Source: Dyadobacter arcticus (lineage in GTDB: Bacteria; Bacteroidota; Bacteroidia; Cytophagales; Spirosomataceae). Taken from it: a stretch of DNA of 64,000 nt. The notes below the pieces were generated by a model. That model had not been told where the DNA came from. It worked only from the letters and a program-made list of their open reading frames with translations, and made no database searches. Below are positions 2 through 54,307 of the stretch, piece after piece. Each line of letters starts with the position of its first letter. Position 1 is the stretch's first letter. The stretch covers positions 310,001 to 374,000 of the forward strand of contig NZ_JAASQJ010000003.1 of NCBI RefSeq assembly GCF_011762185.1. The letters are read 5' to 3'. A program made the position numbers and the translations under genes.

Positions 2-1102
2 AAATGGATCGCGCCGCATCAGCCTTTTATTGATATCAATTCAATGCAGTGGAAAGTGGGTGAAAATGAGTTCAGGCTGGAAATGCAGGGTGACACTTTC
101 GAAACTGAAGACCAGCGGAATTGGGGCGACGCTTCTTATAAAACCTATTGTACACCCTTACACATTCCTTTTCCGAGAAAGATCAATGTCGGGGACACCA
201 TTCTCCAGAAGGTGACCTTCAAAGCCAGCCTTTTTGAAATGCAATCGGAAAAAGTGCCGCAAAAGAATGTTATCCCTAACACTCAATTCAAAATTGGGAC
301 CTCTGCACCAGCGGCTCAGGATATTTCAAAGGAGTGTTTTGAGAAGTTGAAGGCAATGCGTTTTGATCATTTTCATGTTGAAATTGATTTCTCCGAAAAC
401 GGCTGGCGGGAAAAGTTTCTTGCACGGGCAAGCCAGGCAGCCATGTTAGGAATCAAAGTGGCGGCAGCGCTGGAATTAGGTAGTGATTTTCAAAATGATT
501 TTGACGTTTTTGTCAGCTTCTTGAGTGGCAATTTTTTGCAGTTGAAATCGCTGACATTGTTTAGCAAAGATGAATTGGTAACAAGCCAGGAAGTGATTGA
601 TCATATTCCCGAGATAAAAAGTCAGCTGGGAAACGCGAAGATTGGGATAGGGACCAAATATAATTTTACAGAATTGAACAGGTATAGGTTTGAGCCGGGA
701 ATGGCCGATTTTATCACCTTATCCTTTGATCCACAGGAACATGCATCCGATGATCTCACCATTATCGAAAATGCGGCAACTGTGAAATATATGGTTGAAA
801 GCTTGCATAATATGTACAAAAAGCCCGTCCACTTTTCGCCGGTAATGCTCAAACGCAGGTTTAATCCGTACGCAACAGACAAGCAACAAGTAAATCTGCC
901 TCGTGATAAACAAACGGATCCAAGACAAAAAATAGCTTTTCTGGCTGATTGGACAGCATTGCTTTTAAAGAATCTGGAAGAAACCGATGTAGCTTCTGTT
1001 ACACTTTACAGGGCGTTTGGTGAACTGGGATTGATGGATGAGATGGGAAATGAGTATCCTGTGTACCAAGAGATCAGAAATTATGCTGACCGGAATAAGT
1101 AG
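2..1102 (+). CDS. apnL: D-apionate lactonase-like protein (ApnL), 5' end outside window
   Basis: The reading frame is open to the left edge, so only the C-terminal ~366 residues are present. The first part has the G-D-T-F-E-x-E-D-Q-R-N-W and Y-K-T-Y-C-T-P-L stretch I associate with the beta-sandwich part of ApnL-type proteins. Residues after about 90 look like a (beta/alpha)8 barrel. ApnL opens D-apionolactone to D-apionate in apiose breakdown. The call rests mainly on context: the next two genes match OiaC and ApnO of the same pathway, and the next gene overlaps this one by 20 bp. It could otherwise be a generic glycoside-hydrolase-like protein. No signal peptide can be judged because the start is missing. 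Confidence 0.68.
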   Translation, partial: KWIAPHQPFIDINSMQWKVGENEFRLEMQGDTFETEDQRNWGDASYKTYCTPLHIPFPRKINVGDTILQKVTFKASLFEMQSEKVPQKNVIPNTQFKIGTSAPAAQDISKECFEKLKAMRFDHFHVEIDFSENGWREKFLARASQAAMLGIKVAAALELGSDFQNDFDVFVSFLSGNFLQLKSLTLFSKDELVTSQEVIDHIPEIKSQLGNAKIGIGTKYNFTELNRYRFEPGMADFITLSFDPQEHASDDLTIIENAATVKYMVESLHNMYKKPVHFSPVMLKRRFNPYATDKQQVNLPRDKQTDPRQKIAFLADWTALLLKNLEETDVASVTLYRAFGELGLMDEMGNEYPVYQEIRNYADRNK

Positions 1103-1910
1103 CTACACATACGGCTGGAATATCGGAGTGGAAAAAGCGATTCCCGCAAATGCTATGAATGAATTGGATTTGGTCGACTACACCATTGACTTCGGGTTGC
1201 AGTGCCTGCAAATTGGAGATAACCTTCCTGTACACACATTTAATGAGTCGCGAAAAGCAGATTTAAAACAATTGCTGATTAAAAACCAGATCAGACTAGA
1301 ACTGGGCGCAAGAAGACTAACTGCGGCGCATTTGCAAACCTACATCGAGCTCTGCCGGTTTTTCAATGCGCCCTTATTGCGCTTTGTGATTGATGGAGAT
1401 GATTATAAGCCTGATCTGATTGAAGTTAGCGCAATTATAAAAGACTTTTTACCCGAATTAAAAAAGTATAACATTACCCTTGGCATTGAAAATCATGATC
1501 GGTTTAAGGCAAAGCAGCTGGCTGATATGATGGAGGCAATAGGGGATGATCAAGTCGGAATCTGCCTCGATTGTGTGAATTCCATCGGGGCAGGAGAAGG
1601 TCTTGGCCACGTAACCGGGATTCTGGCATCATACACAGTGAACCTGCATATTAAAGATTTCACAATCAGTCGGTTAGCTCATAAAATGGGTTTTTTTGTA
1701 ATGGGAGAAATTGCGGGAACAGGAATGACAGACCTGCCCTTGCTTTTGGAAAAATTAGAAAAATACGGCCGCTGCCAGAGCGCCATTCTTGAACAATGGG
1801 TACCTCCCGAAATGAACATTGAAGACACTTGCCGCAAGGAAAAACATTGGGCAGCATTAGGTGTTGCTTACGTGAAATCAGTATTACTCAAACAGAAACA
1901 ATCGTTATAA
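1083..1910 (+). CDS. oiaC: Sugar phosphate isomerase/epimerase family TIM barrel, probable 3-oxo-isoapionate decarboxylase (OiaC-like)
   Basis: A 275-residue AP-endonuclease-2-type TIM barrel. The start at M-L-T-G-I-S-S-Y-T-Y-G-W is chosen because it begins the first barrel strand; the longer frame from 1038 only adds residues overlapping the upstream gene. Metal-ligand motifs of the family are visible: G-I-E-N-H-D (Glu) near residue 135, C-L-D-C-V-N-S (Asp) near 165, N-L-H-I-K-D (His) near 190 and a late Glu in A-I-L-E-Q-W. OiaC converts 3-oxo-isoapionate, the ApnO product, to L-erythrulose and CO2. That specific role is inferred from the ApnL-OiaC-ApnO order; on sequence alone only a sugar isomerase/epimerase-like enzyme can be claimed. 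Confidence 0.68.
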   Translation: MLTGISSYTYGWNIGVEKAIPANAMNELDLVDYTIDFGLQCLQIGDNLPVHTFNESRKADLKQLLIKNQIRLELGARRLTAAHLQTYIELCRFFNAPLLRFVIDGDDYKPDLIEVSAIIKDFLPELKKYNITLGIENHDRFKAKQLADMMEAIGDDQVGICLDCVNSIGAGEGLGHVTGILASYTVNLHIKDFTISRLAHKMGFFVMGEIAGTGMTDLPLLLEKLEKYGRCQSAILEQWVPPEMNIEDTCRKEKHWAALGVAYVKSVLLKQKQSL

Positions 1911-1922
1911 AATCACATTCGA

Positions 1923-2756
1923 ATGGCAAAGATCGCATTAGTGGGTGCAGGGGGCAAAATGGGTTGCCGGTTGACTGATAATTTCCTGAAAATGCCTGAA
2001 TATCAGGTATCTTATCTCGAAGTGAGTGAGGCGGGAATAGCAAATCTTGCCAGAAGAGGGGTTATGGTAAGTGAGCCGGGAGCGGGCGTTGCGGATGCAG
2101 ATATTGTTATTTTGGCGCTGCCGGATATTATTTTAGGTAAGCTTTCTGCAGACATTATCCCGCTGATGAAAGCTGGTGCAACGGTTCTTACGCTCGATCC
2201 CGCTGCGCCGCTCGATGGTGTCGTTTTTCACCGCGACGACCTGGGTTATGTTATAGCCCATCCCTGCCATCCTTCCGTGTTCAATTGGGAGCCAACGGAA
2301 GAAGCTTTTCGTGATTTTTATGGTGGTATTTCTGCAAAGCAATCCATTGTGGTAGCCTTAATGCATGGCAGTGAGGAGCATTTTGAATTGGGCAAACAGG
2401 TTGCGACGGATATGTACCAGCCCATTGACAAAGTGTACCGCATTACATTGGAACAAATGGCCACGCTGGAACCCGCCATGGTCGAAACGCTTGCGCAAAC
2501 CTGTATGGAAGTCGTGAAAGAGGGTTTTGATAGAATTGTGGAGCTGGGTGTGCCAGCGGATGCGGCCAGGGATTTTGTATTAGGCCACTTGCGAATCCAG
2601 ATCGCCGTTTTGTTCAAAGAAGTGAATGGCACCTTTTCGGATGCTGCTTATAAAATTTCAAAACGCGCCAAACCATTGATTTTTAAGGAAGGCTGGCAGA
2701 AAATATTTGAACTCGACGATATCAAGGAACAGGTTAAGGCCATTACCAATCACTAA
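1923..2756 (+). CDS. apnO: D-apionate oxidoisomerase-like dehydrogenase (ApnO)
   Basis: 277 residues. The N-terminus holds a Rossmann NAD(P) site (A-L-V-G-A-G-G-K-M-G, residues 5-14). The C-terminal half resembles the helical phosphogluconate-dehydrogenase C-terminal domain, with H-P-C-H-P-S in the linker and a long helical segment to the end. ApnO oxidises and isomerises D-apionate to 3-oxo-isoapionate, the substrate of the preceding gene product. It follows the OiaC-like gene by 12 bp and precedes the importer ATPase by 39 bp, so all five genes probably form one operon. The family assignment is firm; the exact substrate is inferred from gene order. Confidence 0.75.
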   Translation: MAKIALVGAGGKMGCRLTDNFLKMPEYQVSYLEVSEAGIANLARRGVMVSEPGAGVADADIVILALPDIILGKLSADIIPLMKAGATVLTLDPAAPLDGVVFHRDDLGYVIAHPCHPSVFNWEPTEEAFRDFYGGISAKQSIVVALMHGSEEHFELGKQVATDMYQPIDKVYRITLEQMATLEPAMVETLAQTCMEVVKEGFDRIVELGVPADAARDFVLGHLRIQIAVLFKEVNGTFSDAAYKISKRAKPLIFKEGWQKIFELDDIKEQVKAITNH

Positions 2757-2795: not shown

Positions 2796-4265
2796 ATGCG
2801 CCTCGAACTGCATGCTATTTCGAAATCTTTTGGGCCGGTTAAAGCGGTGCAGAACATCAGCTTTGATCTGATGGAAGGAGAGGTACATGCCATTTGCGGC
2901 GAAAATGGCGCAGGGAAAAGTACATTGATGAACATACTGTCGGGTAATCTCAGCCCCGACAGCGGTGAGATTCGGATGGAGGGCAGCATGGTCAACTTTA
3001 AAAACCAAATGGATGCCAATGTTCATGGCATAGCCATTGTTTATCAGCACCTTAGTCTTTTTGATAATCAGAATGTTGCGGAGAACATTTTCGTAAACCG
3101 TTTTCCCGAGACAAGATCTGGCTTCATTAACTACACGCTGCTTTACCAGGAAACAGCCATTTTACTGCAAAAATTAGGGGTTGATCATCTTTTTCAACCA
3201 CAGACGAAGGTTTCAGAACTTTCGGCAGGGCAAAAACAAATGGTGGAAATTGCAAAGGCATTGTCGCAAAATCCATCGGTTTTGATCCTCGACGAACCTA
3301 CCGCCTCGATATCCGGAAATGATGCGCAAACGCTATTCCGGATCATTGTAGGCTTGAAAGCAGGAGGAACTTCGATCATTTATATCTCCCACCGTTTGGA
3401 TGAAATATTTGAAATCGCGGATCGGGTAACGGTTTTGAAAGACGGAAAATGGGTTGGCGTGTTCAAAATGGAGGTGTTGACTAGGGAGTCGCTGATTGCC
3501 ATGATGATAGGGAGGGAGATCAAAAAAATGGCTCGAAATTCCAATGTGGGAAAGGAAGTTGTGCTGGAAGTAAGGGGTTTATCCAATCAAAAAATACGTG
3601 ATATCTCTTTTAAAATTTACCAGGGCGAGATCCTAGCGCTGGCGGGACTGGTAGGAGCGGGGAGGACTGAAATCGCCAAAACGATTTTTGGAGCCATGCG
3701 AAAACAGGCAGGGGAAATACGGGTTAAAAACCGGGTCGTTGATATCAATAGTCCTGCTGACGCTGTAAAATACAAAATTGCATTTGTGCCCGAAGAACGT
3801 AAGGCGCTGGGCCTATTTGCAGGTATGTCCATTGCCGAAAACATCAATTCAGTCAATTTCAACGACGAACAACCTTTTTTTACAAATTCTACCGAAGTTG
3901 TTAAACGTGCAGAAACCTATAAAGAAAAGCTTAGGATCGTGAGCCACTCTGTCCGGCAACCTGTTGCCGCATTAAGTGGCGGTAACCAGCAAAAAGTGGT
4001 GCTAGCAAAATGGTTATCTACCAATCCTGACCTACTCATTATCGACGAGCCTACCCACGGAATCGACATTGGGGCAAAGTTTGAAATTTATGAAATGATC
4101 CAGAAGCTGGCGGTAGAAGGGATGTCCATCTTGCTTATTTCCAGTGAATTGCAGGAAGTACTGGCAATTTCTGATCGCATATTGGTGGTAAAAGATGGCA
4201 TGATCCAGAAGGAGCTGAAAACTGCCGATACCAGTGAGGAGGAAATTTTGAAATGGGCAATGTGA
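2796..4265 (+). CDS. Sugar ABC transporter ATP-binding protein (RbsA/XylG type)
   Basis: 489 residues with two ABC ATPase modules, as usual for the RbsA/MglA/XylG group. Module 1 has Walker A G-E-N-G-A-G-K-S-T (near residue 36), signature L-S-A-G-Q-K-Q and Walker B L-I-L-D-E-P-T. Module 2 has a degenerate P-loop (G-L-V-G-A-G-R-T-E, near 284), signature L-S-G-G-N-Q-Q and Walker B L-L-I-I-D-E-P-T. The weak second P-loop is normal for the family. It powers the permease/binding-protein fusion encoded 10 bp downstream. By context the substrate is probably apiose, apionate or a related sugar acid, which sequence alone cannot prove. Confidence 0.92.
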   Translation: MRLELHAISKSFGPVKAVQNISFDLMEGEVHAICGENGAGKSTLMNILSGNLSPDSGEIRMEGSMVNFKNQMDANVHGIAIVYQHLSLFDNQNVAENIFVNRFPETRSGFINYTLLYQETAILLQKLGVDHLFQPQTKVSELSAGQKQMVEIAKALSQNPSVLILDEPTASISGNDAQTLFRIIVGLKAGGTSIIYISHRLDEIFEIADRVTVLKDGKWVGVFKMEVLTRESLIAMMIGREIKKMARNSNVGKEVVLEVRGLSNQKIRDISFKIYQGEILALAGLVGAGRTEIAKTIFGAMRKQAGEIRVKNRVVDINSPADAVKYKIAFVPEERKALGLFAGMSIAENINSVNFNDEQPFFTNSTEVVKRAETYKEKLRIVSHSVRQPVAALSGGNQQKVVLAKWLSTNPDLLIIDEPTHGIDIGAKFEIYEMIQKLAVEGMSILLISSELQEVLAISDRILVVKDGMIQKELKTADTSEEEILKWAM

Positions 4266-4275
4266 ACCGAAAAAT

Positions 4276-6225
4276 ATGAAAAAGATCTTTTCAGAACGAA
4301 TTTATACCCTCACTTTGACCATCGGCGTGATAGCGGTTGCAGCCTCCATTATTTATCCCGACCAGTTTCCGACATTTCAGAATTTCAGCCAGATTTTCCT
4401 TAATCTTTCCATCGATACCATTGTGGCGGTGGGCATGATGTTGCTGATGATTTCCGGCGCTTTTGACCTTTCCGTTGGCTCGGTTGTCGCGTTTTCGAGC
4501 TGTTTGGCCGCCTATCTCATGTTTTTCATGCATGTTCCCGTTCCGGTTGCATTGCTGATCAGCCTGCTTGCCTCACTTTCTATCGGTGGGATCAATGGCT
4601 ATCTCATTGCATATCAGGGTATCAATCCGATGATCCAGACGCTGGCAATGATGGGTATTGTGCGAGGTTTGGCTTTACTGGTCAGCGGGGCGGGAATCCA
4701 GGGATTGCCTTACTGGTTCAATGCCATTTCACAATCCAGACTGCTGGGAATCCAAATGCCGATCTGGTATATGTTGCTCATTGTCATTGCGGTAGCCTTT
4801 CTGACGCGCAATACTACTTTTCTAAAACGATATTATTTTATAGGCGGAAATGACAAAGCCGCAGAACTTTCGGGCATTAATGTCAAAAAAATGAGGCTTT
4901 TTTCCTTTATGCTGATTTCCCTTCTGGCAGGTTTTGCCGGAATTCTACTAGCTTCGAGATTAGGCGCAGCGTTGCCCACATCCGGTCGGAACCTCGAATT
5001 GCGCGTTATTACGGCGGTAATTCTCGGTGGCGCCAGCTTACAGGGAGGGACTGGAAAGATACAGGGCGCATTATTGGGTGCCATATTAATGGGCCTGATC
5101 GCTAATATTATGATCATTGCGAGGGTATCCGGTTACTGGCAGGAAATTATCCTGGGTATCATCCTCATTCTGGCCGTATGGATTGACAGGATTTTGCAAA
5201 GGGGAAATTTCGGCGGCAATGTAAAGAAATGGACAGCATTGTTTCTATTGTCACTCACCGTCATGAGTTGTGAGCTTCCGCCACGAGAAGAGAATGCTTC
5301 CTCAGAAAAAATAGCTTTTGATACTACTCAAACCTTTGAAAATGAAGAATATGTGATGGTTACCACCGCAGTTTCTATGCCCATGTATGTCAATCACGAT
5401 CAGGCTGCATTTATCCGCTGGGGCAAGGCAAATCATGTGAAAGTTTCCATTTTAGGTCCTTCAGATTGGGATGTACCAGCGCAGATCAACACCATTGAAG
5501 AAGTAATTGGTACCCGTCCGACGGGTTTACTGATCAATGGTACCGACCCCGCGATTGCTGGTGCAATTAATAAGGCCGTGGACGCCGGGATCCCCACCGT
5601 CGTTTACGATTCTGACATTCCGAACTCAAAAAGGCATGCATTCCTCGGCACAAATTGGTACGAAATCGGACAAATGCAGGGAAATGAAATGGTGAAATTG
5701 ACCAGTGGAAAGGGGAAAATCGCGTATATGGGAATTCTGGGGCTTTCTAATATGGAAGACGGTTTTCGCGGTCTGCTTGATGTTTTCAAAAAATACCCGG
5801 GTATAGAAGTGGTCGGGAAGTATGATGACAAGGCCAATGTAGAAGAAGCCGCAAAGATCACTGCCGACCTCATTTCCGCGCATCCGGATCTGGCCGGACT
5901 CTGCGGTTTTGATTCTAATTCAGGTCCTGGGATAGCGCTTTCCGTAAAAGAGGCAGGGAAAGCAGGGAAAATAAAAATCACAACCGTCGATTGGGAGCCC
6001 GAGCATCTGAACCTTGTGAATGAAGGGATCATTCAATTATTGGCTGGTCAGAAACGCGAGCTTTTTACCTGGTATGGTGCTCAGTTTTTATACGATATGG
6101 TGCACAAAACCAATAAATTATCAACTAACGATTCAAAAGCCGGGATCACCAATCTACCTACAACCGTGAATACCGGATTAATCAAAATCACCAAAGAGAA
6201 CGTTGGGCAATTTTTGAAAAAGTAG
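4276..6225 (+). CDS. Fused sugar ABC permease and periplasmic binding protein
   Basis: 649 residues in one frame. Residues 1 to ~307 are an RbsC-like permease with many membrane helices and the cytoplasmic E-L-S-G-I-N-V loop near 197. A hydrophobic stretch (about 319-331) then ends in L-T-V-M-S-C332, which looks like a retained lipoprotein signal. From ~350 on there is a type I periplasmic sugar-binding domain (Peripla_BP_4 class: ligand motifs around L-L-I-N-G-T-D-P, V-V-Y-D-S-D and F-D-S-N-S-G-P). The fusion would tether the binding protein to the outer face of its own permease. No ATG lies at the junction that could start a separate binding protein; an out-of-frame ATG-TAA sits there. It is the last gene of the apionate operon. 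Confidence 0.9.
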   Translation: MKKIFSERIYTLTLTIGVIAVAASIIYPDQFPTFQNFSQIFLNLSIDTIVAVGMMLLMISGAFDLSVGSVVAFSSCLAAYLMFFMHVPVPVALLISLLASLSIGGINGYLIAYQGINPMIQTLAMMGIVRGLALLVSGAGIQGLPYWFNAISQSRLLGIQMPIWYMLLIVIAVAFLTRNTTFLKRYYFIGGNDKAAELSGINVKKMRLFSFMLISLLAGFAGILLASRLGAALPTSGRNLELRVITAVILGGASLQGGTGKIQGALLGAILMGLIANIMIIARVSGYWQEIILGIILILAVWIDRILQRGNFGGNVKKWTALFLLSLTVMSCELPPREENASSEKIAFDTTQTFENEEYVMVTTAVSMPMYVNHDQAAFIRWGKANHVKVSILGPSDWDVPAQINTIEEVIGTRPTGLLINGTDPAIAGAINKAVDAGIPTVVYDSDIPNSKRHAFLGTNWYEIGQMQGNEMVKLTSGKGKIAYMGILGLSNMEDGFRGLLDVFKKYPGIEVVGKYDDKANVEEAAKITADLISAHPDLAGLCGFDSNSGPGIALSVKEAGKAGKIKITTVDWEPEHLNLVNEGIIQLLAGQKRELFTWYGAQFLYDMVHKTNKLSTNDSKAGITNLPTTVNTGLIKITKENVGQFLKK

Positions 6226-49637: not shown

Positions 49638-49678
49638 TCCCCCTCCCTTTTCCTTTCCTCCCCGTCCTCCCTTTTTTC
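49638..49678. repeat. Polypyrimidine/polypurine tract at the egtD 3' end
   Basis: About 41 bases of the plus strand are C and T with one G interruption (49664), directly touching the egtD stop codon on the minus strand. Such mirror-rich tracts can form triplex DNA or affect transcript ends. No hairpin terminator is visible for the ergothioneine operon, so the purine-rich RNA might play that role; this is speculation. Confidence 0.4.
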
Positions 49679-50618
49679 AAACCTCCCACAAACTATCAGT
49701 AAAAAAAGCTTTACAATCCATGAAATGCTCCATAACCGTGAATCCATTGTTTTCAGCAGCATTTTCGATTTCACGTAATGTATATTTCTTCGAAAGCTCA
49801 GTCCAGATCACCTCATTTCGTTCAAAAGAATAAGACTGCTGATTTTCCTTCACAAAAACATTTTGAGGCACAAGGCTGATCAGATAACTCCTTACTTCAC
49901 CATTTAAAGGATTATAATGGGAATAAAAATCAAACTGATTGGTCTTGAAATTCCCGCCGAGTTCACGGTTAATGCGGTGTAAAAGATTGATATTAAATGA
50001 TTTGGTGATTCCCTTAGGATCGTCGTAGGCGCAACGGATGGTAGCCGGATTTTTTTGCAGGTCAAAGCCGGTCAGCAGCTTATCGCCCTTTTTCATGCTG
50101 CCCCGGAAGTCCTTCAAAAGATTGTTGACTTCATTTGCCTCATAATTGCCAATATTTCCGCCCAGGAAAAGGTATAAGGCCGGCACCGATGTATGCGAAA
50201 GCTCTTCCATCATGGAAAAGTAATTGCCGATCATTGGATTGATTTTGATTTTGGGAAGATGTTTAAGCATGCCCGAAACCAGCTCCTCAATGGCTTTTTT
50301 TGAAATGTCAATCGGCACATAGGTGAAGTTAGCCCCTATTTCGACGAGCTGTTTGAGTAACTGCCGCGTCTTGATCCCGTCACCCGCGCCAAATTCCACA
50401 ATGTTGAAAGGTTTATCAAAACCCAATCTTTCGATAATCCGACATCCCTGAAGCGATAAAATTTCAAACTCGCAGGCGGTAGGGTAGTACTCCGGCATTT
50501 TCATGATATCCTGAAAGATGCCGCTGCCGATATCGTCGTAAAAATATTTAGAGGAAATGTGTTTCAGCGGAGCAGTTAAGCCTTTGTGAATATCCTTTGC
50601 AAATGTAGTGTCTGTCAT
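49677..50618 (-). CDS. egtD: L-histidine N-alpha-methyltransferase EgtD
   Basis: 313 residues, full length for EgtD. Family landmarks: the opening K-Y-F-Y-D-D-I-G-S-G-I-F-Q and E-Y-Y-P-T-A-C-E-F-E-I-L, SAM site V-E-F-G-A-G-D-G-I-K near 80, and P-I-D-I-S near 110. EgtD trimethylates histidine to hercynine, the first step of ergothioneine synthesis. It lies 17 bp after egtB and is the last gene of a five-gene minus-strand operon that also encodes an importer and a disulfide reductase. Confidence 0.95.
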   Translation of the reverse strand: MTDTTFAKDIHKGLTAPLKHISSKYFYDDIGSGIFQDIMKMPEYYPTACEFEILSLQGCRIIERLGFDKPFNIVEFGAGDGIKTRQLLKQLVEIGANFTYVPIDISKKAIEELVSGMLKHLPKIKINPMIGNYFSMMEELSHTSVPALYLFLGGNIGNYEANEVNNLLKDFRGSMKKGDKLLTGFDLQKNPATIRCAYDDPKGITKSFNINLLHRINRELGGNFKTNQFDFYSHYNPLNGEVRSYLISLVPQNVFVKENQQSYSFERNEVIWTELSKKYTLREIENAAENNGFTVMEHFMDCKAFFTDSLWEV

Positions 50619-50635
50619 AAACTATTTAATATCAA

Positions 50636-51793
50636 TTACTTAGCCAACCTGATGCCAGTGAATTGCCAGCGCTCCCGGGCATGAAAAAAGTTTCGGTACG
50701 TTTTCCGGCTGTGACCGGGAGAAGTTCCCACGGACGCGCCGCGCAGTATCATTTGGTTGATCATGAATTTACCATTGTATTCACCCACCGCACCGGGCGC
50801 TTTGGTAAAGCCAGGATAAGGCAGATAGGCACTGTTTGTCCATTCCCACCGTTTCCCCCAATCCAGGTTGACAGCCGCAATCTCCCACTCAAATTCCGTC
50901 GGCAGTCGCATTTGTTTCCATTGGGCAAAAGCAGAGGCTTCAAAAAAGCTGATGTGGCTAAGCATTGCATTAGGATTCACTTTTTGCAATCCATCCAGCG
51001 TGTAATAATGCCAAACACCATTTATTTTATGCCAATACATGGGCGAATTCACCGCATGTTCATTCACCCATGACCAGCCTTCATCGAGCCAAAGGTTAAA
51101 ATCCTGGTAGCCACCAGCTTCCATGAATTCCAGATATTCCTCATTGGTTACCAGCGCTTTGCTGATCTCAAATTCATGCAGATAGACTTTATGGGCACCA
51201 AGCTCATTATCAAAACAAAAGCCATCACTTGCAAACCCAACATCATATACGCCCTCCTGGATTTTCAAAAAGCCGGACTCGGTATTGGTGGAATCTACCA
51301 GATTATGGCCGGATTTGTAAACAGGAAATAACGGGTTGTGACCCAGAATGTATTTGATATCAGTTACCAACAATTCCTGATGCTGTTGTTCATGATGAAG
51401 CCCTAATTCTACCAATGTCAGCGCCTGTGGATCGTCCAGTTTTTCCAAAAGCTCATCCATACATCGATCCACATGTTGGCGGTATGCATACACAGCTTTC
51501 GTCGTTGGCCGCGTAACATTTCCCCTGTCAGTTCGGAGGGTGCGTTCTCCGACATTGTTATAATAACTGTTGAAAAGGTAGTTGAAATCGGGATCGTAAA
51601 CCTGATAATTGGGCAGGAAATTTTTAAGGATAAATGTTTCAAAAAACCATGTTGAATGAGCTAGGTGCCATTTCGGAGGACTTACAAATGGAACTGGCTG
51701 CGGTACATAATCTTCTGTTTCAAGTGGGGCGCAAATAAGCTCGGAATATTTTCTAACACTGTTATAAGCTTCCCTAATGCTGCTGGTTTTCAT
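50636..51793 (-). CDS. egtB: Ergothioneine biosynthesis sulfoxide synthase EgtB
   Basis: 385 residues. N-terminal DinB-like domain with iron ligands His in A-H-S-T-W-F-F-E (near 46) and H-H-E-Q-Q-H-Q-E (near 133-140), followed by a formylglycine-generating-enzyme-like catalytic domain (about 175-385: L-P-T-E-F-E-W-E, R-G-A-S-V-G-T, R-N-F-F-H-A-R-E-R-W-Q-F-T-G). EgtB joins hercynine to a thiol donor with O2. No egtA or egtC is adjacent, so either cysteine is the direct donor, as in some non-actinobacterial EgtB types, or later steps are encoded elsewhere; the missing C-S lyase (EgtE) must be elsewhere. Its start lies inside the importer gene (20-bp overlap). Confidence 0.95.
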   Translation of the reverse strand: MKTSSIREAYNSVRKYSELICAPLETEDYVPQPVPFVSPPKWHLAHSTWFFETFILKNFLPNYQVYDPDFNYLFNSYYNNVGERTLRTDRGNVTRPTTKAVYAYRQHVDRCMDELLEKLDDPQALTLVELGLHHEQQHQELLVTDIKYILGHNPLFPVYKSGHNLVDSTNTESGFLKIQEGVYDVGFASDGFCFDNELGAHKVYLHEFEISKALVTNEEYLEFMEAGGYQDFNLWLDEGWSWVNEHAVNSPMYWHKINGVWHYYTLDGLQKVNPNAMLSHISFFEASAFAQWKQMRLPTEFEWEIAAVNLDWGKRWEWTNSAYLPYPGFTKAPGAVGEYNGKFMINQMILRGASVGTSPGHSRKTYRNFFHARERWQFTGIRLAK

Positions 51794-53351
51794 TAGATGA
51801 ATGTATTTTTAAATCACTAATCGTCTTAATATTCAAGGATTGTGCCTGCGTTTTTCGCATCATCAACGCATATGCGTTATTAAATCCGATCGGTTTGAGC
51901 CATCGCAGTTTATATTGGGTTAGAAATTGAGCTTTTACATATTCAAACACTTTCTCCCGATCACCAGCCAGCCCTTCCATCACTGCTGAGGAAGGTTTAA
52001 GCAAAACCAGCAATCCAGTTCCGGTATATTCAGGATACATATCAATTTCACCGTTTGTCAAAGCATCAAAGCAAATTTTTGTCCCGCCGAGACCGGTTTG
52101 GCTGACTGTTTTTAATTGGGTATTCCCTTCAATCAATTCTTTAAACATCTGGATAAGGATGTACTGCTCTGCGAAAATCTTCGAACCAAGCCTAATAGTA
52201 CCCTTATTTCCATTTAGAGGCTTTTTGTAAAGCCCTTTGGACAAAAGAAAATCATGCGCCACTTTCTCAGGGCTTTGTTTGAGGTAGTCTACCCGATAGT
52301 TTAAATCCGTCATCACCGAGTCATTAATTTGCCCGGAAAGCAATTCCAATGTCGGTTGGAGTTCGGGAAATTTTTTTAGAATATCCTCCCGGATAACAGC
52401 AGAGGCAAAATAAGGCGGGAAAATATGTTTATCGTCTTTCAGCGTAATCAGGTTATAGGCCTTCAATCTCCCATCGGTGCTATACCCGCTGATCACGTCA
52501 ATCTTGTTTTCAAAAGCGGCCTTATACATTACCGCATCGCTGATCACAACAGTTGGAATATCTAAATTATACTTTGATTTCAAACCCAAATAACCGTCCT
52601 CGCGACCCATAAACTCCGGCGTGAAGCCGCCGAGTATTTGATTTTTGGTATGAGGAATAATGTAAAAAGATGAAAGGATTAAAAGTAGCGCAGGTAAAAT
52701 CACTGACACTTTGCGCATTCGTTTTACATTGGCCTTCTGTATCCGGGAAAGTAGAAAATCAAAAAAGATAGCCAGTAATGCAGCAGGAATCGCGCCAGCC
52801 AGGATCATATTGGTGTTATTCAATGCAATACCTCCAAAAATAAATTCACCCAAGCCACCCGCAGCGATGTAAGCCGCCAATGTGGCCACACCCACATTAA
52901 TCACCGTTGCGGTTCGAATCCCCGCAAGAATCACAGGCATCGCCAAAGGCAATTCCACGCGAAAAAGTACCTGCCATTTATTCATTCCCATTGCCCGTGC
53001 CGATTCGGTAATAGCCGCATCCACACCAATGATTCCCGTGTAAGTGTTTCGGATGATTGGAAGCAATGCGTACATAAAAAGTGCGGTAATTGCAGGCAAT
53101 GCGCCAATTCCCAACAATGGTATCATAAAACCAAGCAATGCAATGCTGGGAATGGTTTGTAGGATTCCGGCAAATCCCAAGATAAACCAGGCCGCCTTAC
53201 GTTTCTGGGCAATCCAAATGCCAAGAGGTAATCCAATAATTACCGCGATTAAAAGTGAAATGCAGGTGAGCCCAATGTGCGCGAGGGTCTGGCTCCACAG
53301 CTTATCCGACTGTTGCGCCATAAAACCCCATAAGCTTTGACTGGTCTCCAT
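51774..53351 (-). CDS. Fused ABC permease and OpuBC-type binding protein, probable ergothioneine importer subunit (EgtU-like), binding domain permuted
   Basis: 525 residues. Residues 1-210 are an OpuB/ProW-type permease with EAA loop (A-M-G-M-N-K-W-Q-V-L-F-R, 119-130). After a further helix (215-233) comes an OpuAC-type domain whose halves are swapped: segments normally in the second half (P-E-F-M-G-R-E-D-G-Y, 245-254; S-T-D-G-R-L, 291-296; F-P-P-Y, 311-314) precede those normally at the N-terminus (G-S-K-I-F-A-E-Q-Y-I-L, 389-399; P-E-Y-T-G-T-G, 440-446; G-F-N-N-A-Y-A-L, 489-496). The chain ends just after I-S-D-L (511-514), at the usual hinge. EgtU, a known ergothioneine importer, is also a permease-binding-protein fusion. 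Overlap with egtB makes ergothioneine or a precursor the likely ligand; betaine-type compounds are the alternative. Confidence 0.85.
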   Translation of the reverse strand: METSQSLWGFMAQQSDKLWSQTLAHIGLTCISLLIAVIIGLPLGIWIAQKRKAAWFILGFAGILQTIPSIALLGFMIPLLGIGALPAITALFMYALLPIIRNTYTGIIGVDAAITESARAMGMNKWQVLFRVELPLAMPVILAGIRTATVINVGVATLAAYIAAGGLGEFIFGGIALNNTNMILAGAIPAALLAIFFDFLLSRIQKANVKRMRKVSVILPALLLILSSFYIIPHTKNQILGGFTPEFMGREDGYLGLKSKYNLDIPTVVISDAVMYKAAFENKIDVISGYSTDGRLKAYNLITLKDDKHIFPPYFASAVIREDILKKFPELQPTLELLSGQINDSVMTDLNYRVDYLKQSPEKVAHDFLLSKGLYKKPLNGNKGTIRLGSKIFAEQYILIQMFKELIEGNTQLKTVSQTGLGGTKICFDALTNGEIDMYPEYTGTGLLVLLKPSSAVMEGLAGDREKVFEYVKAQFLTQYKLRWLKPIGFNNAYALMMRKTQAQSLNIKTISDLKIHSSNENQQH

Positions 53352-54307
53352 TAAATGTTATTTTTTATCTGATTGAAGGCAGTTTGAATCGATGATTGGG
53401 TTCCAATTCTGACTTCGCCGTTTTGCAGATTCTTTATAGCTATCTCCTTTACGTTACGCTGTGAAAGCAACTCCATCCCTTGCCACAAACTCTGATTGCT
53501 TTCCAATACATTATCAGGCATGCTATCTGAAACGGGCAGCAAATGCCATATATCTTCAAATTTCAGAGCCGTCAGTTCAAGATATAATCGCTGATTTTCG
53601 AAGAAAGAACGTACGAAGTCATTGGCAGGACGAAATAATAGGTCTTTGGCGTCGCCTGATTGCACAATCCGGCCCTTATCCATCAGGCAGATCCGGTCAC
53701 CCATTTCAAAAGCCTCCTGCACATCATGCGTCACGAGAATGATCGTCTTCTTTTTCAGTTCGGGCAGGTTCACGAATTCTTTGCGGACGGCTGCGCGTGT
53801 GACTGGGTCCAATGCGCCAAATGGTTCGTCCATTAATAGTACCGGCGAATCCGAGATCAGCGCCCGTGCAACAGTAACCCGCTGCTTTTGTCCGCCGCTT
53901 AATTCATCAGGATATTTATCGCCAAATTCCGCCACTGGGAGTTTCAGTTGATCCAGCAATTTTTCTGCATGTTCACGGATTTTCACCTTATCCCATCCCA
54001 ATAAGCGAGGGACGACTGCTATATTCTCGGAAACTGTATAATGAGGGAAAAGGCCATTGTTCTGGGAAACGTATCCGATTGTACGTCTTAATATTTCGGG
54101 TTGTTGCTGAAAAATGTCTTGCCCGTTGATCGAAATGCTGCCGGAAGTAGCCTCAATAAGCCGGTTGATCATTTTTAATGTCGTGGTCTTTCCGCAACCG
54201 CTGGTGCCGAGCAGGACCATCGTTTCACCTTCTTTTACCGTAAAGGAAATGTCAGCAACTGCCTGTATATCATTGAAATTCTTACTGAGTTTTTCGGCAA
54301 CGATCAT
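53351..54307 (-). CDS. ABC transporter ATP-binding protein (OpuBA/EgtV-like)
   Basis: 318 residues. Walker A G-T-S-G-C-G-K-T-T (near 34), Q-loop, signature L-S-G-G-Q-K-Q (near 137), Walker B V-L-L-M-D-E-P-F-G-A-L-D and H-loop V-T-H-D. The ~75 C-terminal residues after the nucleotide-binding domain are a divergent extension. It drives the permease fusion; stop and start overlap by one base (TAATG), the tightest form of coupling. It is homologous to quaternary-amine ATPases; EgtV would be the name if the substrate is ergothioneine. Confidence 0.92.
   Translation of the reverse strand: MIVAEKLSKNFNDIQAVADISFTVKEGETMVLLGTSGCGKTTTLKMINRLIEATSGSISINGQDIFQQQPEILRRTIGYVSQNNGLFPHYTVSENIAVVPRLLGWDKVKIREHAEKLLDQLKLPVAEFGDKYPDELSGGQKQRVTVARALISDSPVLLMDEPFGALDPVTRAAVRKEFVNLPELKKKTIILVTHDVQEAFEMGDRICLMDKGRIVQSGDAKDLLFRPANDFVRSFFENQRLYLELTALKFEDIWHLLPVSDSMPDNVLESNQSLWQGMELLSQRNVKEIAIKNLQNGEVRIGTQSSIQTAFNQIKNNI

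Follow-up and report, generated by a model that had tools for sequence, protein, structure and literature searches.

Lipoprotein signals are commonly treated as N-terminal features, prediction programs included. In OpuA, a permease is followed by its receptor in one chain, and in Bradyrhizobium FbcH (cytochrome b/c1), a membrane protein and an exported protein are made as one chain that carries an internal signal sequence and is then cut. No paper on FbcH was found in the literature that we searched. According to the part of PMC9732360 that describes it, EgtUBC (ergothioneine) carries TMD and SBD in a single chain, and OpuF, also a TMD-SBD fusion, is named in the title of a reference in the same article. 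A phrase search of the literature, together with topic searches covering titles and the beginnings of abstracts, returned no description of an internal lipobox.

Here we analyse a stretch of 64,000 nucleotides from Dyadobacter arcticus (the window). It contains a gene of a kind found in few bacteria, in which the importer pore and the sugar receptor are one protein and the join keeps the lipid-attachment signal of the receptor. The sequence suggests that the receptor may still be excised by the cell and held by a lipid anchor.

Organization of the fused gene

The gene has the following layout.

4276..6225, plus strand: fused permease and substrate-binding protein ORF, 649 aa, no internal stop
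4276..5202, plus strand: RbsC/AraH-type permease part, aa 1-309 (Pfam BPD_transp_2 at aa 38-301)
5221..5268, plus strand: internal lipoprotein-type signal sequence, aa 316-331
5269..5286, plus strand: lipobox C332 and conserved mature N-terminus C-E-L-P-P-R, aa 332-337
5287..5343, plus strand: variable linker, aa 338-356 (model pLDDT <50 at 331-352)
5344..6222, plus strand: RbsB-type substrate-binding domain, aa 357-649 (Pfam Peripla_BP_4 at aa 361-609)

As judged from its domains, the ORF joins an RbsC/AraH-type permease in frame with an RbsB-type receptor. The permease part matches PF02653 (BPD_transp_2, 128.6 bits, aa 38-301), and its top NCBIfam model is AraH with 223.9 bits, which is under the cut-off of 378. 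The receptor part matches PF13407 (Peripla_BP_4, 169.9 bits, aa 361-609), and among solved structures it is closest to the arabinose-binding protein 6sw4 (E 4e-40), followed by other sugar-binding proteins. The junction between the two reads VKKWTALFLLSLTVMS-C332-ELPPR, with the hydrophobic stretch ending in VMS-C332 and the cysteine encoded by TGT at 5269-5271. The domains and the junction sequence confirm the preliminary description of this DNA, which had claimed an RbsC-like/RbsB-like fusion with an internal lipobox-like stretch ending at C332. The signal begins near aa 316 and not at the N-terminus of the primary product.

An AlphaFold2 model of the fusion (28 rows, mean pLDDT 76, pTM 0.47) has a 15-residue helix of low confidence at 316-330 and a confident receptor fold from about residue 380. 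The pLDDT is below 50 at residues 255-258, 311-318 and 331-352.

Neighboring genes and the likely substrate

Four genes precede the fusion on the same strand.

44..1102, plus strand: ApnL-like (D-apionate lactonase-like) gene, 3' part, with its start lying before the window
1083..1910, plus strand: xylose-isomerase-like TIM barrel protein, start placed at about 1083 by comparison with homologues (scan from 1074)
1923..2756, plus strand: PGDH_C-family protein, for which apionate oxidoisomerase is a possible name
2796..4265, plus strand: double-ABC sugar ATPase of the importer, with two ABC_tran stretches

The best NCBIfam model of the ATPase is AraG (518.1 bits, under the cut-off of 689). In D. 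luticola, the upstream part of the locus comprises an apiosidase-like gene (PF13204, 416.8 bits) and the ApnL-like, TIM barrel and PGDH_C genes, and the window carries the latter three. Both ApnL-like sequences score below the NCBIfam equivalog cut-off of 750 (274.5 bits for the D. luticola copy and 121.1 bits for the part in the window). We take the apiose pathway as the basis for reading these neighbors as apiose/apionate genes. The Dyadobacter genes then form an apparent operon for apiose or apionate use, and the neighbors together with this pathway make apiose or apionate the likely substrate of the importer. The literature searched contained nothing on the apiose/apionate link. Upstream of the window, a 455-aa ORF may be the apiosidase, as judged from its start.

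Distribution and origin of the fusion

In a set of 39 genomes that includes the window's own, a full-length fusion without stops is also encoded by G009 (88% identity) and G020 (84%). Coordinates and sequence match G009 to Dyadobacter luticola and a further genome, G101, to D. psychrophilus. The search was widened to the family, the order and the class, where the best 3-5 candidates per genome were scored and weak homologues may be missed. In the family, 36 of 222 genomes match at E 1e-60 or better, and stop-free fusions are present in G000, G009, G020 and G101, all of one genus, and in G178 of another genus (59%), in which 2/13 genomes match. In the order, 20 of 390 genomes match at E 1e-80 and add one further fusion, that of G324 from another family (58%). 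In the class, the window's own genome is the single match among 395 at E 1e-90, in a thin sample: separate relatives exist in other orders, e.g. in Mucilaginibacter and a Chitinophagales MAG. Altogether, four Dyadobacter genomes carry an intact fusion, the three besides the window being 88, 84 and 84% identical to it. A second fused group comprises three genomes outside Dyadobacter, two with an intact gene and one with a frame break after the lipobox. In the other members read, including G090 and G100 of the window's own genus, the permease and receptor genes lie apart.

The preliminary description had named a frame error at the junction as evidence that would count against it. The fusion is not such an error because full-length, stop-free homologues exist in three other genomes of the genus. 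More generally, that a sequencing or assembly error joined two genes is a practically negligible possibility: G183 does show a frame break near this place, but each of six genomes carries an intact fused ORF, and four of these genomes belong to one genus. The G183 locus (L066, from the genus of G178) has a similar junction, and its break, real or a sequencing error, falls between the lipobox and the receptor.

Eight further Dyadobacter genomes had open frames of 665-739 aa that were candidates for additional sugar-permease fusions. These listed lengths read through stops, and all eight proved to be separate genes with stops between them. The separate pairs are often tightly packed, with 8/39 overlapping by 4 bases and 23/39 (those 8 included) within 14 bases of each other, so a small frame change could fuse them.

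Several loci have unusual layouts. Three Flammeovirgaceae MAGs (L086, L087 and L088) have two tandem lipobox receptors behind one permease. In L034 (G028), the permease and the receptor are encoded separately, with about 1.3 kb and a 300-aa ORF between the two genes. In L038 (G013), short NGYYPMNG-like repeats run in frame before the start of the receptor gene and are probably repeat DNA ahead of the real start.

In a tree of the receptors (48 loci), the seven fused rows fall in two places, and well-supported branches force two changes. Three changes, two of them forced, appear in the tree of the permeases (46 loci); the third arises because the separate locus L098 falls among the second fused group. 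A single clade of all fused receptors is rejected on the receptor tree (p-AU 8e-96). Hence, the fusion probably arose twice, as far as these trees can tell; one old fusion followed by many later splits is a less simple explanation.

A second, unrelated fusion in the window

51774..53351, minus strand: EgtUBC-like fusion ORF with BPD_transp_1 and OpuAC domains

This ORF stands in a row of minus-strand genes (49677-54307) that are EgtD-like, EgtB-like, the EgtUBC-like fusion and an ABC ATPase. The EgtB-like neighbor matches TIGR03440 with 524.8 bits, above the cut-off of 360, and the EgtD-like neighbor reaches 273.6 bits, below its cut-off of 290.9. The row is apparently a set for ergothioneine synthesis beside an ergothioneine-type importer, whose cargo, by its neighbors, would be ergothioneine. 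The EgtUBC-like fusion occurs in 43/121 genomes and 11/36 genera of the family (E 1e-100). None of the 30 rows read (the window and 29 loci, of 49 places listed, three of those with an internal stop) has a cysteine at the junction.

A second, unrelated permease-receptor fusion had been taken to mean that this lineage favors tethered receptors. The fusion is there and it is unrelated (BPD_transp_1/OpuAC), but the preference does not hold up. The second fusion is of the EgtUBC-like kind, common in the family and without the junction cysteine in the rows read, and the related sugar pairs read in the genus are separate genes in 9/9 loci, among them the window genome's own second permease-receptor pair. 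The ORF at 51774-53351 is therefore an unrelated, ordinary case and a useful contrast to 4276-6225.

Conservation of the junction

The junction cysteine is present in all 51 receptor rows, 7/7 fused and 44/44 separate, as located by a finder that looks near the expected place for A/G/S/T before the cysteine and E/D/Q/T after it and hence favors lipoboxes. Homologues lacking this cysteine, which the preliminary description had named as evidence against an internal lipobox, do not occur among these rows. The rows come from 48 loci, since L086, L087 and L088 give two each; the second receptor row of L086 and L100 are cut by contig ends. Same-genome duplicates (e.g. L002, L044, L045, L047, L049, L050, L053-L055, L057, L063-L065, L103-L106 and L109) were left out. 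In the separate receptors the cysteine lies within a lipobox, e.g. MKKLLLFSLLGVAS-C-ELPPR, and in the fused rows the residue at position -1 is small (S/G/A) in 7/7, partly by construction of the finder.

A strict PROSITE-like lipobox pattern fits the window junction and altogether 4/7 fused and 40/44 separate junctions. The fused junctions that miss it have W at -2 (G020 and D. psychrophilus) or C at -4 (G324). The same pattern also matches a permease cysteine in 4/7 fused proteins, and a generic pattern is by itself weak evidence.

In 46 gap-free junction columns of the four Dyadobacter fusions, hand-aligned and counted from after the invariant permease end LQR up to the receptor fold, only five are invariant, and these are C-E-L-P-P in a row. 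An invariant run of this length appeared in 6/100,000 shuffles. C-E-L-P-P is the mature start of the separate lipoproteins, and the second fused group has C-E-G-P-P, with four of the five residues in common. The surroundings of the motif drift. At residues 306-331, the window and D. luticola are 35% identical, the four cross pairs 27-31% and G020 and D. psychrophilus 81%, and the linker after C-E-L-P-P retains 21-47% identity; the two domains are 86-96% identical. In five Dyadobacter pairs the dN is 0.69-0.92 at the junction versus 0.05-0.11 in the two domains, and for G020 and D. psychrophilus it is 0.109 versus 0.025; most of the dS values in this comparison were high or could not be computed.

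As the motif is fixed, selection seems to preserve the lipobox cysteine and the start of the mature receptor, with the remainder of the junction drifting in the manner of signal peptides. This pattern favors a junction that would still be used as an internal lipoprotein signal. The lipobox reading of the preliminary description is supported, and so is its suggestion that C332 may still be lipidated after internal cleavage; the cleavage belongs to the mechanism proposed below.

Signal sequence or membrane helix

Uncharged residues preceding the cysteine form a stretch of 13, 16, 13 and 13 in the Dyadobacter fusions, 9-17 in the 44 separate rows, and 17, 23 and 22 in the second fused group. At the junction, the best 19-residue Kyte-Doolittle mean reaches 1.12 for the window protein, 1.38-2.02 for the three other Dyadobacter fusions and 1.59-2.03 for the second group. 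For reference, permease peaks (>=1.4) have values of 1.84-2.37 and separate signal peptides 0.83-2.48. By this measure the window junction looks signal-like, and the other fusions look ambiguous. The longer stretches, and a hydropathy of 1.38-2.03 across the six other fusions, make a membrane helix possible for the second group. The extra membrane helix considered in the preliminary description is a poorer fit to the window protein.

If the stretch were a mere membrane anchor, as in EgtUBC, the cysteine would be a relic or be kept for some other reason. The 17-23 uncharged residues of the second group agree with this, as does the frequent occurrence in the family of permease-receptor fusions that lack a junction cysteine. 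However, a relic should decay, and C-E-L-P-P is unchanged where the rest of the junction has diverged in five of the six Dyadobacter pairs; the stretch in the window is also short and weakly hydrophobic. We consider this explanation rather improbable and prefer a functional lipoprotein signal.

Start codons at the junction

Two features of the junction were considered as present or former starts of the receptor.

5194..5196, plus strand: in-frame TTG (Leu307), in the window protein the sole candidate for an internal start at the distance of a signal peptide
5219..5224, plus strand: out-of-frame ATG-TAA, not conserved and probably due to chance

The ATG-TAA had been proposed as the scar of a lost start. 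This finds no support, since it is absent from both other fusions scanned, those of D. luticola and G020. A better candidate for such a relic may be the in-frame codon 316. At this codon the window has GTA, D. luticola ATG, and G020 and D. psychrophilus both have CTG. In the window it precedes the cysteine by 16 residues; the starts chosen for separate genes (picked by rule as a Met 13-34 residues upstream of the cysteine) lie 13-17 residues before the cysteine in 22/39.

An in-frame start at the junction could also be in use and give an extra, free prolipoprotein besides the fusion, and thus an excess of receptor. Candidates are the TTG at 5194-5196 and, in D. luticola, an ATG 20 or 16 codons before the cysteine. 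Leu307 is TTG in 4/4 Dyadobacter fusions, the only such column among 68 all-Leu columns, and this is the chief pointer to internal initiation. This observation was made post hoc on four related genomes, and among separate homologues with Leu at this position TTG occurs at the background rate (4/25). For the second group, in-frame candidates are an ATG at -31 codons in G178 and GTG at -31 and -16 in G324, but the codons at position 307 are CTC, GTA and CTG. As there is no in-frame ATG at signal-peptide distance in 3/4 Dyadobacter fusions, the fusion is apparently the route by which the receptor is made, and even with internal initiation the fused product would remain. We hold such initiation to be unlikely.

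Proposed processing

We propose that the fusion is a polyprotein that would be processed at its internal lipobox. One chain comprises a CUT2-type permease, then the internal lipoprotein signal peptide and then the sugar receptor. RbsC permease ends in the cytoplasm. If the same is true here, the KK-plus-hydrophobic stretch can enter the membrane N-in/C-out, as ordinary signal peptides do. C332 would then receive diacylglycerol from Lgt, and LspA, which requires a small residue at -1, would cut before C332 to free the permease and a lipid-anchored receptor in equal amounts. The location of the anchored receptor likewise follows from this scheme. We put the probability of such processing at roughly one half. 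A farther-reaching reading, which we hold to be slightly less probable, is that an ABC importer polyprotein, its receptor cut out of the permease by LspA at an internal lipobox, arose at least twice in Bacteroidota and would fix permease and receptor synthesis at 1:1. The LspA (PF01252) and Lgt (PF01790) families are present in 6/6 fused-gene genomes searched (G183 left out). As they also occur in 10/14 and 9/14 control genomes, respectively, their presence shows only that the pathway is possible.

Alternatively, Lgt could modify C332 with LspA remaining idle, so that the receptor would be held by both the signal stretch and the lipid. The conserved cysteine and C-E-x-P-P fit this equally, 3/7 fused junctions have no strict lipobox match, the modeled linker at 331-352, of low confidence and probably flexible, could let the receptor reach the permease, and the known TMD-SBD fusion EgtUBC is described, in the relevant part of PMC9732360, as one chain. 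Against it, the small residue at -1 in every fused row, if partly a product of the finder, suits LspA, and an uncut chain has no obvious need for a fixed C-E-L-P-P downstream. We regard this uncut form as unlikely and retain cleavage before C332 as the preferred reading.

If the conserved internal signal is real, a preceding polytopic membrane protein would be no obstacle to Lgt and LspA, and internal lipoproteins may be missed in annotation. The fusions also offer two separate natural cases for asking how tethered and freed receptors compare at fixed stoichiometry in a sugar importer.

Comparison with known systems

The closest relatives are the CUT2 (RbsABC/AraFGH-type) importers of Fibrisoma, Larkinella, Chryseolinea and others, which have the same permease and receptor families and the lipobox cysteine, mostly followed by E-x-P-P-R, and whose genes are mostly adjacent. 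The fused gene shares with them BPD_transp_2, Peripla_BP_4 and an adjacent double-ABC ATPase. They differ in having two genes and a receptor with its own start codon, whereas in 4276-6225 receptor and permease are one ORF. Fusions of the EgtUBC/OpuA type resemble 4276-6225 in the order of permease then receptor in one ORF, but they belong to the BPD_transp_1/OpuAC families, which 4276-6225 does not, and the EgtUBC-like ones have no junction cysteine (30/30). FbcH, in turn, is a cytochrome cut by a signal peptidase of another type, whereas the internal signal of 4276-6225 is of the lipoprotein type and would be cut by LspA.
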